Below, piece by piece: positions 28,601 through 31,075 of a stretch of 64,000 nucleotides of DNA. The translations under genes and the position numbers were made by a program. Position 1 is the first letter of the stretch; every line of letters begins with the position of its first letter. Source of the stretch: Saccoglossus kowalevskii (lineage: Eukaryota; Hemichordata; Enteropneusta; Harrimaniidae). Under the pieces are notes generated by a model. That model was not told the DNA's origin, did no database searches, and saw only the letters and a program-made list of their open reading frames with translations. The stretch spans positions 436,035 through 500,034 of the forward strand of contig NW_003155239.1 of assembly GCF_000003605.2 (NCBI RefSeq). The letters are read 5' to 3'.

Positions 28601-31075
28601 GATTTCATGTATCAATTGCTTTAATTTTATTATTTTATTGATACTACCTTTCGCACGTGACCCAAATTTGATGCAACACTTCCCTTAACGATGTGTGGCA
28701 TGTCATTTGCCCTCTGACCTTAGAGAGTAACTATACATTTACTTATAACAAGATATTCACAATTTTAAGCATTTTTTCTGTATTTTATTTACATATAAAG
28801 TATAGCAACGTTTCTCATGTATTCACCCAATCGGTAGTACCCATTAGTCAAACGGTTCAATTTAAGCGTACTGATTTTTTTTTTCTGCGTTCTTATCTTT
28901 GAATTAAAAGTTAAAACAGTCAAATGGGATAAAATTTCTCATCTCATAGCATCAGATTTGATGACGTTTCCGTTGAATTACAGTAACCAAATTGAAGCAC
29001 TGATTACTCTACTCATCTAACCCAGGGGTTATCTTGGATTTCTTAACTAAACTGCATTGGGTGATAAGCAAGACGTATCTGATAAGTATACTACACTCGC
29101 CTCGATTAGCCTTTCTCACACATCTCCCCCCTCTATCAGTTTGACTTACAATTAAGACTGGTTTACATTATTTTAGAGACTCTAAACCGATAAGACTAAT
29201 CTCATCCATTTTCTCACAATTTTTTAACAAACACACAAAGTAAATCTCAATGTTGTATTTTTAGAATTTAAAAATTATAAAGGCAGCCATATTAAATATT
29301 CTATATTTCACAGTTCTATGTTAAATATATTGTTGCCAAGGCAACACAGTTGAGCTTTGAACTTTTGACTATCCCATGGTACTGCTATTATATCCGAGGG
29401 TATTCCAGAGGTGGAGTGGTTAATACTTCTGGGAAAATTGTGGGAAAGGAGGAATACATACATGCATTACTTTTCTGTATTCCATAATATTATTTTGAGC
29501 AAATTCTTCTGTTATTTCTAAAACTTTTGAATGCCAACGTCAATATTTGTGCTTTTCACAAAATAAACAGGCATCATTTTTTCTATATTTTTTTCAAAAC
29601 TTTTCATCAAGACTTGTAGTCCCATTTTTTGATTGGTTAAATATTGCACCTCAACCAATCAGAAAGCTGATTGCTATTATTCCATCCAATGAGGCAATAG
29701 TATTTCAGTATCTTACCTCCTTCAGATGGGTCCAACCGTCTGGCTCTTCTACCATGTTTTGAGTTGTTGTGTACAAACATGTTATCAGACACGGCAAGGA
29801 CATGGCCATCAACATTTGGAGTCGTTGATATGACAACCTGTAAGAATAATCAAGACATTTTTTTTTATTTCTACTTGTCTATCATTTTTAAGAAAAAAAA
29901 AATATAATTTGTTGATCTGTCATGAGTCGACAGACAGTCACGAATCAAATCACAATAATTTTATTTTAGGTCTTGATGGTTTAATGAGAATTTTGTGGTG
30001 GGGGAAAATGACAGGTTGTTCACCAAGAGAGTCGACCTTTCACCTTTGAAATGAGCAAAAGTCTCGTCTCTATAAGTCTCGTCTTTGACTAATCTACTTT
30101 TTTCTTCTGGAGGTGATTTTGTTGTTAATTCAGTCTGCCGAGAATTCCCGTCCTCCGTTGCCAAATTCAGCAACTCAGCTGGGATCCACGAAAGAAAAAC
30201 CCAATTGTCATGTGACCAGACTTAGCCATTCCGCTCACTGTTGCAATTCCGTCAATTTTGATGATTTTGGTCAGCCGACATACGAAGGTTAAAAGCAGAG
30301 GTCAGATGCTGACACCAGAGGTCACCAACAACATATTCAAATTAGCGGAGTCGGTCTCTAAAGAAATCGACTGTCTTTAAAATGCAAAAAGAAGGAGATA
30401 ACCATGTTGACAGGATACTTGTAAAACAGATAGAGAAGGATCTCCAAGGATCACTTCGGGGCATGTGATTTTTTGCAGTGAAATATCATGAAAGCGGGAT
30501 CGACATAATGCCATTGGCAGAGTCTGAGTAGTCCCAAGGCATCCAGTTCAAATAGGTTGGCTATATGTTTCATGCATGACCCCTACCATAACTAAGTACA
30601 TCTAGTTATTCGAAATATAAAAAAAAAAGTATACACACACAATTTTAAATTAAACTGACAATTTTAAAAATCATTACAACACTTTTCAAACCTATACAAA
30701 ATAATTATAAAAATAATTACACGAAACACATATTTATAAAAAAAAAAATTTAAAAATCCACATCTAACATATATCTAGAAAAAAAAAAGATGTTTATTAT
30801 ATCCTTTTTCTTGTCAGGCTCCAGGACCAATTATTTCATTTTTTTTCGTGATCAAGGTCTTGACTTTTTACCTGAAATCTTCGCATATCCTTGGGGTTGC
30901 CAGCGTTCCGAAGACAGTTCTGGTTACATTTCATAAAGTGCTTCAAGAAAAACCTGAAAAATATTGAGTAAAAAAAATAACTGATCAAATTACCTGAAAT
31001 CTTCGCATATCCCTGGGGTTGCCGGCATTCTTGAGGCAGTTCTGGTTACATTTCAAGAATAACTTCAAGAAAAAC
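16524..31075 (-). CDS. COE: COE/EBF transcription factor, 3' part of gene (multi-exon, 5' end outside window)
   Basis: COE/EBF proteins are nuclear DNA-binding regulators of neural, mesodermal and haemocyte/lymphoid fate; they dimerise through an HLH motif and bind ATTCCCNNGGGAAT-type sites. Seen here: end of the DNA-binding domain (two alternative exons, then an exon with the KHGRRARR motif), IPT/TIG domain ([17 protein letters not shown] onward), HLH helix 1 and loop ([23 protein letters not shown]), one helix 2 ([16 protein letters not shown]), then a Ser/Pro/Asn-rich tail with the block [20 protein letters not shown]. All junctions are GT-AG and the phases agree. Taking one copy of the duplicated exon, coding length is 1258 nt, about 418 residues plus stop; from memory the matching part of human EBF1 is about 406. 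Exons for the N terminus and zinc knuckle are not found in the window. Family identity is near certain. A single helix 2 marks it as an invertebrate gene. Confidence 0.96.
16643..17266 (-). other. COE last intron
   Basis: 624-bp intron between exon 13 and the terminal exon. A short A-rich AAGAAAG patch lies near 17080. Nothing else recognised. Confidence 0.75.
17267..17488 (-). CDS. COE: COE exon 13: conserved C-terminal block
   Basis: 222-nt exon, acceptor CCTCTACAG, donor CCAG|GTGGGT. It reads [19 protein letters not shown], then the strongly conserved block [20 protein letters not shown] and [14 protein letters not shown], ending ECSGTYLP. This matches the vertebrate EBF C-terminal region almost residue for residue in the GIFSFSPAN block. 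It enters in phase 2 and leaves in phase 1. Reading past the donor gives GGWA and a stop, another possible alternative end. Confidence 0.94.
17489..23354 (-). other. COE intron between exons 12 and 13
   Basis: 5.9-kb intron. It contains a MITE-like element (19824-20015) and balanced-composition stretches at about 20240-20760 and 21250-21600 that could be regulatory. Vertebrate EBFs have a short NSPYA-type segment between the flanking coding blocks; I did not find a microexon for it, and direct joining of exons 12 and 13 keeps the frame. Confidence 0.7.
19824..20015. repeat. MITE-like element in COE intron
   Basis: The ends ATACTGTAAACTAAT and (reverse complement) ATACTATAAACTATT are inverted copies. 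Internally two related segments begin TTTTCGCTGCTA and TTTTCACTGCTA. About 190 bp. Confidence 0.55.
23355..23531 (-). CDS. COE: COE exon 12: Ser/Asn/Gly-rich transactivation region
   Basis: 177-nt exon, acceptor TTGGCAG, donor TCAA|GTAAGC. Two bases complete a Gly codon, then [20 protein letters not shown], a low-complexity Ser/Asn/Gly/Tyr segment with [14 protein letters not shown], and SFLNGSS at the end. It corresponds to the vertebrate segment GFTRNSSSVSPHGY through SPTFLNGS. It leaves in phase 1, and its last base A joins TT of the next exon to make Ile. Confidence 0.92.
23532..24530 (-). other. COE intron between exons 11 and 12
   Basis: About 1 kb, very A/T-rich, with a TTAATT-rich low-complexity patch at about 23930-24030 and a poly-T tract near 24460. 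No coding block seen. Confidence 0.8.
24531..24720 (-). CDS. COE: COE exon 11: HLH helix 2 and start of C-terminal region
   Basis: 190-nt exon, acceptor ATTTTCAG, donor CAGTCAG|GTGAGC, leaving in phase 1. It starts with helix 2, [20 protein letters not shown], then [20 protein letters not shown] and a Gly/Ser stretch. Vertebrate EBFs carry two tandem versions of helix 2; only one is present here and no second copy is visible in the intron at 24721-26314. Reading through the donor adds [10 protein letters not shown] and a stop at about 24499, so intron retention would give a short protein lacking the transactivation tail. Confidence 0.95.
24721..26314 (-). other. COE intron between exons 10 and 11
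   Basis: 1.6-kb A/T-rich intron with a poly-T tract at about 25390-25409. In vertebrates this position would carry the extra helix-2 exon ([19 protein letters not shown]); nothing like it is visible. Confidence 0.75.
26315..26530 (-). CDS. COE: COE exon 10: rest of IPT/TIG domain plus HLH helix 1 and loop
   Basis: 216-nt exon, exactly 72 codons, phase 0 at both ends (acceptor TTTTTCACAG, donor AAG|GTGGGT). It reads [20 protein letters not shown], then the [20 protein letters not shown] core, then helix 1 ([20 protein letters not shown]) and DPERLPK. It matches vertebrate EBF at about residues 304-375. The intron between exons 9 and 10 is only 202 bp (26531-26732), one of the shortest in the gene. 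Confidence 0.97.
26733..26863 (-). CDS. COE: COE exon 9: first part of IPT/TIG domain
   Basis: 131-nt exon. The acceptor CTGCAG is followed by two bases that complete the Ala codon, then [20 protein letters not shown] and on to [11 protein letters not shown]. Donor is GAG|GTGAG, phase 0. This is the start of the immunoglobulin-like IPT/TIG fold, which lies between the DNA-binding domain and the HLH and contributes to dimer geometry. Differences from vertebrate EBF are minor (S for A in TTGGATV, I for L in GTMLVWSE). Confidence 0.96.
26864..29716 (-). other. COE intron between exons 8 and 9
   Basis: 2.85-kb intron with poly-T tracts at about 27887-27900 and 28519-28540 and a short ATC run near 28048. 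No exon encoding a TPSYLEH-like insert was seen. Confidence 0.8.
29717..29837 (-). CDS. COE: COE exon 8: end of DNA-binding domain, HGRR motif
   Basis: 121-nt exon, entering in phase 0 and leaving in phase 1 (donor GGAG|GTAAGA). The translation begins [20 protein letters not shown], continues [20 protein letters not shown] and is nearly identical to vertebrate EBF residues of about 213-252. The HGRR segment is part of the family's DNA-contacting surface. The 7-8 residue TPSYLEH-type insert that vertebrate EBFs can carry after this point is absent; the split Ala codon leads straight into TPCIKAI. Confidence 0.96.
29838..30871 (-). other. COE intron between exons 7b and 8
   Basis: 1034-bp intron, mostly A/T-rich. 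It includes several short A tracts around 30620-30790. No further copy of exon 7 or other coding block is visible. Confidence 0.8.
30872..30953 (-). CDS. COE: COE exon 7b: tandem alternative copy of the same DNA-binding-domain exon
   Basis: A second 82-nt exon with its own acceptor (ATATTTTTCAG) and donor (CAG|GTAAAA), in the same phase as 7a. It encodes [16 protein letters not shown] through KDMRRFQ. Against 7a there are 12 base changes in 82: four change an amino acid (L to H, L to M, K to R, R to K) and the other altered codons are synonymous. The frame, both splice sites and the Asn/Gly residues of NQNCL.NAGNP are intact, which argues against a decayed copy. Only 40 nt separate it from 7a. 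I infer mutually exclusive use with 7a, producing two COE proteins that differ in the DNA-binding domain. Expression cannot be judged from sequence. Confidence 0.88.
30954..30993 (-). other. 40-nt spacer intron between COE exons 7a and 7b
   Basis: It starts GTAATTTG and ends ATATTTTTCAG. A TTTAC branch-point candidate sits about 25 nt from the donor and 15 nt from the acceptor. A donor-to-branch distance this short is below what animal spliceosomes normally accept, so 7a-to-7b splicing should be blocked. The TTACTC hexamer around the candidate branch point also occurs at the equivalent place before 7a, so the duplication seems to have included it. Confidence 0.85.
30994..31075 (-). CDS. COE: COE exon 7a: DNA-binding-domain exon, canonical copy
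   Basis: 82-nt exon. Acceptor is TTTACAG, donor is CAG|GTAATT. The first base completes a split Arg codon from the unseen upstream exon, then 27 codons follow, starting [16 protein letters not shown] and ending RDMRRFQ. This matches about residues 186-212 of vertebrate EBF1 with a single difference (L for F at position 5), so it is the ancestral-type copy. A CTTAC branch-point candidate lies about 15 nt before the acceptor. The exon ends in phase 0 and joins the exon at 29717-29837. It must be used instead of exon 7b: if both are joined, the frame shifts and a TAA appears at the tenth codon of 7b. Confidence 0.93.

Follow-up and report, generated by a model that had tools for sequence, protein, structure and literature searches.

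Background

Can a domain as strongly conserved as the DNA-binding domain of the COE (EBF/Collier) proteins be made in two versions from a single gene? COE proteins direct the identity of neurons, muscle and blood cells, according to published abstracts, and the strong conservation of their DNA-binding domain has been emphasised (PMC2394523); in human EBF3, single substitutions in the equivalent of exon 7 have been reported in disease (PMC8339956, PMC10020332). The question is raised by a stretch of 64,000 nucleotides (nt) from the acorn worm Saccoglossus kowalevskii (contig NW_003155239.1, positions 436,035 to 500,034; hereafter the window, whose numbering is used for the COE gene throughout), in which a first-pass annotation had noticed two copies of one exon of this domain. 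We find that exon 7 of the COE gene is a tandem duplicate, and we think it likely that the only COE gene of this enteropneust uses the copies, 7A and 7B, as mutually exclusive exons, with both of them used and B under selection. If nature has kept an alternative form of the exon beside the first, the comparison would reveal the positions that evolution may tune without loss of function, and, if the reading is true, an invertebrate gains two COE activities from one gene.

Two copies of exon 7

Both copies lie on the minus strand, copy A at 31075-30994 and copy B at 30953-30872, and the span first annotated, 30872..31075, coincides exactly with the outer limits of the two exons, B at one end and A at the other. 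The description of two 82-nt exons in the same phase with complete splice sites also holds: each copy is 82 nt long and encodes 27 residues, both have AG/GT borders, and the phases are identical (2 in, 0 out). Between them lies an intron of 40 nt (30954..30993, minus strand; GTAATT...TTTTTCAG), with U-rich runs behind the donor of A and two branch-point-like motifs, TTTAC (A at +25, nearest the acceptor) and TTGAT (A at +9). Pyrimidines occupy 16 of the 22 nt of the acceptor of A and 17 of the 22 of B. Neither a stop nor an indel was seen in copy B, the splice sites are intact in both copies, as is the pyrimidine tract of B, and no N letters fall within the pair.

The copies are alike at 70 of 82 bases and differ at the other 12, and 4 of the 27 residues differ. 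Local similarity between them (E = 6.6e-25) covers 93 nt, made up of the exon, 7 nt on its upstream side and 4 nt on its downstream side, and excludes chance as the source of the resemblance. Seven of the 12 base differences sit in the four replacement codons, which read TTA in A and CAC in B at residue 190 (Leu/His), TTG and ATG at 192 (Leu/Met), AAG and CGG at 200 (Lys/Arg), and AGG and AAG at 206 (Arg/Lys); the other five are silent and fall in five codons. The reference for the residues of exon 7 was EBF1, represented by the three distinct sequences for which structures are solved (3mln, 3mlp, 3lyr); relative to it, copy A carries one replacement (F190L) and copy B four (F190H, L192M, K200R, R206K). 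The four positions, now read in codons, are those originally proposed. Residue numbers are those of EBF1, taken from an EBF1 sequence (F186), and they agree with the published EBF3 residues Lys193, Asn197 and Arg209 (PMC8339956) and F211 (PMC10020332). A search of 144 kb, within which the N stretches of intron 6 are unreadable, did not find a third copy of exon 7 (E 0.33 for the best match beyond the pair).

The pair A+B has a single match in the 572-Mb assembly. When the genome was searched with the Pfam model of the COE DNA-binding domain, PF16422 (COE1_DBD), at least eight exon matches were obtained at E <= 1, and 8/8 lie on one contig. Because these matches share one contig and the pair matches once, there is one COE locus, and the COE gene is single-copy in the assembly. 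Each copy of exon 7 exceeds the curated cut-off of the model on its own (A 59.0 bits, B 55.4 bits), and the complete spliced DNA-binding domain scores 457 bits in the A form and 455 bits in the B form, the cut-off being 27.

Probable mutual exclusion

In spliced translation, A alone or B alone leaves the frame open through exon 10 and the DNA-binding domain intact. When A is followed by B the frame stops after nine codons past A (VFLEALYEM, stop), and when neither copy is included the shifted frame meets a stop in exon 9. The 40-nt intron offers a second, independent argument. A steric threshold of about 50 nt from the 5' splice site to the branch point has been described (PMC7969005), and the whole intron is below that limit, which was set in other animals; A-to-B joining should be physically blocked, because the intron would be too small to hold the U1 and U2 small nuclear ribonucleoproteins together. 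The apparent mutual exclusion proposed for the pair thus draws support both from the frame that breaks with A+B or with neither and from the size of the intron.

This intron is also the shortest of the 30 seen, the next having 111 nt, and a shorter one may exist in the genome. The others comprise seven in the COE gene (221 to 51,384 nt) and 22 from genes of the same genome for myosins and chaperonins, the sizes of the latter being taken from neighbouring profile matches; the shortest four, read exactly, have 111, 124, 177 and 257 nt and are all GT-AG, and the remaining 18 are estimates.

We envisage that exon 6 would splice to either 7A or 7B and then to exon 8, with the 3' splice sites of 7A and 7B competing for the distant donor of exon 6, and that both isoforms would be produced, the B form being maintained by selection. 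The RNA fold of 320 nt around the pair is no better than that of shuffled sequences (z 0.47; 66/100 shuffles fold at least as well). In this fold the U-rich intron (30954-30993) pairs with an A-rich stretch behind 7B (~30825-30847), so that 7B would be looped out; such looping was considered and given no weight, since the pairing is of low complexity.

Probable selection on copy B

Selection on the protein had been suggested from the abundance of synonymous differences, and a comparison of A with B yields dS 0.69 and dN 0.091, a dN/dS ratio of 0.13. In simulations with 12 randomly placed changes, four or fewer replacements without a stop occurred in 0.16-1.2% of runs. Three of the four replacements of B relative to EBF1 are conservative (BLOSUM62 +2); when a sequence drifted neutrally until it had four replacements, at least three of them scored +2 or higher in about 0.3% of cases, and the BLOSUM62 sum equalled or exceeded that of B in about 2%, the EBF1 residues being assumed ancestral in these drift tests. 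The confinement of similarity to the exon and the adjoining 7 and 4 nt argues that the introns have diverged beyond recognition and the exons have not, unless the duplication was cut almost at the exon borders. Since similarity ends at the splice signals, the dN/dS ratio is 0.13 and three of the four replacements are conservative, copy B is probably functional.

Possible consequences at the DNA

Asn197 and Gly203 had been named at the outset as DNA-contacting residues kept in both copies. Both are indeed identical in A and B, Gly203 being taken as a DNA contact of EBF1. The role of Asn197 has a published counterpart in EBF3, where K193 and N197 are described as located at the DNA and changes of K193, N197 and R209 are reported as pathogenic or damaging (PMC8339956), as is a change of F211 (PMC10020332). 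All four of these residues are identical in copies A and B. The changed positions 190, 192, 200 and 206 are interspersed among them, which makes a shift in DNA affinity or site preference between the A and B forms plausible.

The exchange at these positions may, with less assurance than the splicing scheme itself, tune how strongly COE binds DNA, which sites it prefers or which partners it takes, depending on cell type or stage. The Phe of EBF1 at residue 190 is altered in both copies, to Leu in A and His in B. In its furthest form the proposal is that the single-copy COE gene would yield by exon swap two factors differing in DNA affinity or site preference, that these would do part of the work of the four vertebrate EBF copies, and that residue 190 would be the pivot; we offer this tentatively, and lean somewhat towards doubting it.

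Alternative readings of the pair

Several points weigh against two used, mutually exclusive exons. The use of 7B is a prediction from genomic sequence, so that the exclusion is an apparent one, and the sample is one exon of one animal. The limit of about 50 nt for short introns derives from other animals, and very short introns through which a profile match reads may have escaped our survey. In a gapped comparison of the flanks with shuffled sequences, similarity is slightly above expectation upstream (P 0.03) and not downstream (P 0.17), and the argument from the flanks fails if the duplicated piece came without intron or if the likeness was lost through indels and not through substitutions. 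A contact with DNA by any of residues 190, 192, 200 and 206 is a supposition. A search for relatives of the COE DNA-binding domain gave 156 pattern matches on prokaryote contigs and two on viral contigs, with none confirmed in either; none were to be expected, because these collections are of prokaryotes and viruses. Finally, when A is held fixed and B alone drifts, the replacements are fewer than expected only at P 0.03-0.19, the value varying with the counting scheme, so that selection on the protein is supported by the dN/dS ratio and the simulations above and weakly by this test.

That weak result bears directly on the idea that 7B is the dying copy of a tandem duplication, rarely or never spliced and drifting to loss while 7A does all the work, a view that also suits the greater closeness of A to EBF1 (one replacement versus four in B). 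A copy in decay is nevertheless hard to reconcile with the lack of stops and indels in B and with its intact splice sites and pyrimidine tract, with three highly conservative replacements out of four (P ~0.003), with flanks that lost their similarity while the exon kept it, and with unchanged residues at the positions known from EBF3 disease, and we consider it unlikely. The 40-nt intron, which should prevent A-to-B joining, also speaks against a switch of transcript level, in which the residue changes would be near-neutral and inclusion of A+B or of neither would send a frameshifted transcript to nonsense-mediated decay. Both combinations do shift the frame and reach a stop, and the K/R and L/M changes are mild, yet decay alone needs no good COE exon and B scores 55.4 bits against 59.0 for A; we regard such a switch as very improbable. 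It is hardly credible, in our view, that two alleles or a collapsed paralogue were set side by side by an assembly error: although two runs of N, 7,684 N in sum, stand elsewhere in intron 6, the pair itself holds no N and occupies one locus in the assembly, and a base divergence of 15% between the copies, their dissimilar flanks and the clean intron of 40 nt that separates them do not suit joined alleles. Two mutually exclusive copies, both in use, thus remain the reading that we favour.

Relation to known systems

Exons duplicated in tandem and used one at a time are a familiar arrangement, and the new element is their location in the COE DNA-binding domain: none of the top-ranked papers listed describes an exon swap there, most of the subscription literature lying outside the search. 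In keeping with the first-pass annotation, to whose author no such swap was known, PMC2394523 recognises a single major fixed change in COE, the H2d duplication of vertebrates. Saccoglossus COE is among the proteins of a supplementary analysis in PMC3117877, in whose main text words beginning with 'splic' or 'isoform' were not found. Both isoforms may already figure in automatic gene annotation. Public transcriptome or expressed sequence tag data from Saccoglossus have been used by others (PMC5703972), and the claim of an exon swap is therefore quickly testable.

The closest parallel within the family is the H2d exon of vertebrate EBF, where an asymmetric COE exon was likewise duplicated in tandem; H2d differs in that it concerns helix 2 of the helix-loop-helix (HLH) region, is confined to vertebrates and is present together with the original copy in the gnathostome complementary DNAs examined there (PMC2394523). 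For its origin the same authors postulate a first step, now passed, in which a duplicated asymmetric exon was under mandatory alternative splicing (PMC2394523); on our interpretation, the acorn worm pair is the same kind of state in another exon. Exons 18/18b of FOXP1, reviewed in PMC11701043, are also mutually exclusive, and the residues that they exchange belong to the DNA-binding domain of a transcription factor with a role in development; there, however, the domain is a forkhead and a change of preferred motif has been measured, whereas such a change in COE is a prediction. Exons 4a/4b of OGDH share with our pair an ancient exon duplication and, as we propose for COE, exclude each other because the branch point of the intervening intron is too close to the 5' splice site, but they belong to a metabolic enzyme and their branch points have been mapped 25-41 nt from the donor (PMC7969005), whereas that of COE is a guess (A at +25). 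In chordates, the mutually exclusive exons IIIb/IIIc of FGFR likewise vary the recognition surface of a protein that acts in development, in this case a receptor ectodomain, with an effect on the choice of ligand rather than on DNA binding (PMC5703972).

The surrounding COE gene

The EBF1 residues that correspond to exons 1-6 were sought in the 64-kb window and not found; these exons lie beyond the window end on the same contig (C4443), minus strand. In window-extended coordinates, that is, the window numbering continued past 64000, they are E1 at 85939-85824, E2 at 85476-85320, E3 at 85098-85035, E4 at 84231-84176, E5 at 82973-82900 and E6 at 82528-82460. The exon 6 in the splice junctions originally proposed therefore exists, but outside the window and across an intron of 51,384 nt. 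The published COE DNA-binding domain is split across many exons of which E6 is the sole symmetric one (PMC2394523), and the acorn worm gene agrees with this, since among E1-E8 the length of E6 (69 nt) alone is divisible by three.

Intron 6 lies directly upstream of the exon pair, on the minus strand, with the part inside the window at 31076..64000; its total length is that given by the assembly, which includes the two unreadable N runs. The other introns from exon 1 to exon 8 have 40 to 1202 nt, and this one of 51 kb could harbour regulatory elements. It also contains, 44 nt upstream of exon 7A, a 10-nt minisatellite (31120..31261, minus strand) of some 14 units, overlaid by a higher period of 30 nt, which might contain or disturb branch points or splicing-factor sites.

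Downstream of the pair, and likewise on the minus strand, exon 8 (29717..29837, 121 nt) joins in frame to A or B and is followed by exon 9 (26733..26863, 131 nt) and exon 10 (26315..26530, 216 nt). We take exon 9 to hold the start of the IPT domain and exon 10 its remainder together with the start of the HLH region. The IPT domain and the HLH helices were found by tblastn against the EBF1 sequence and in the spliced translation. In the tblastn comparison a single helix 2 was found, at 24502..24723, and no copy corresponding to vertebrate H2d was seen; with one helix 2 only, the gene is therefore not a vertebrate-type EBF. Two C-terminal coding matches follow, one at 23341..23577 (NSMSPRGY...) and the other at 17268..17489, both on the minus strand; for these and for the helix 2 exon, the borders are those of the tblastn match.

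Other observations in the assembly

The mitochondrial genes of the assembly agree in order and genetic code with what is published for Saccoglossus. On the 17,037-nt contig that carries COX1, this gene and ND6 are encoded on the strand opposite to the remaining protein genes that were read, ND2 stands before ND1, and the anticodon of tRNA-Lys is UUU. AAA is found at conserved Lys positions of ND1 and ATA at Ile positions of COX1; among the 12 open frames counted, AGG appears a single time, ahead of the first Met of the COX3 frame. According to PMC3121625, S. kowalevskii is set apart from Balanoglossus by an inverted COX1 and a transposed ND1 or ND2, and it has AUA as Ile, AAA as Lys, AGA as Ser, AGG absent or unpredictable and tRNA-Lys UUU, whereas echinoderms and Balanoglossus have CUU and chordates read AUA as Met. 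This combination is unique among the deuterostomes in the table of that paper, which makes Saccoglossus or a close enteropneust the most likely source of the window.

Two further features were noted elsewhere in the assembly. In the chaperonin gene at G000:C4408:148200-149810, an open frame of 579 codons matches nearly the whole family without an intron, as would be seen in an intronless gene of HSP60 type, in a retrocopy or in a contaminant of bacterial origin. The mitochondrial contig C4830 carries, at ~16243-16876, a tandem repeat of about 190 nt in which a near-identical peptide is read three times in a row, probably the control region.

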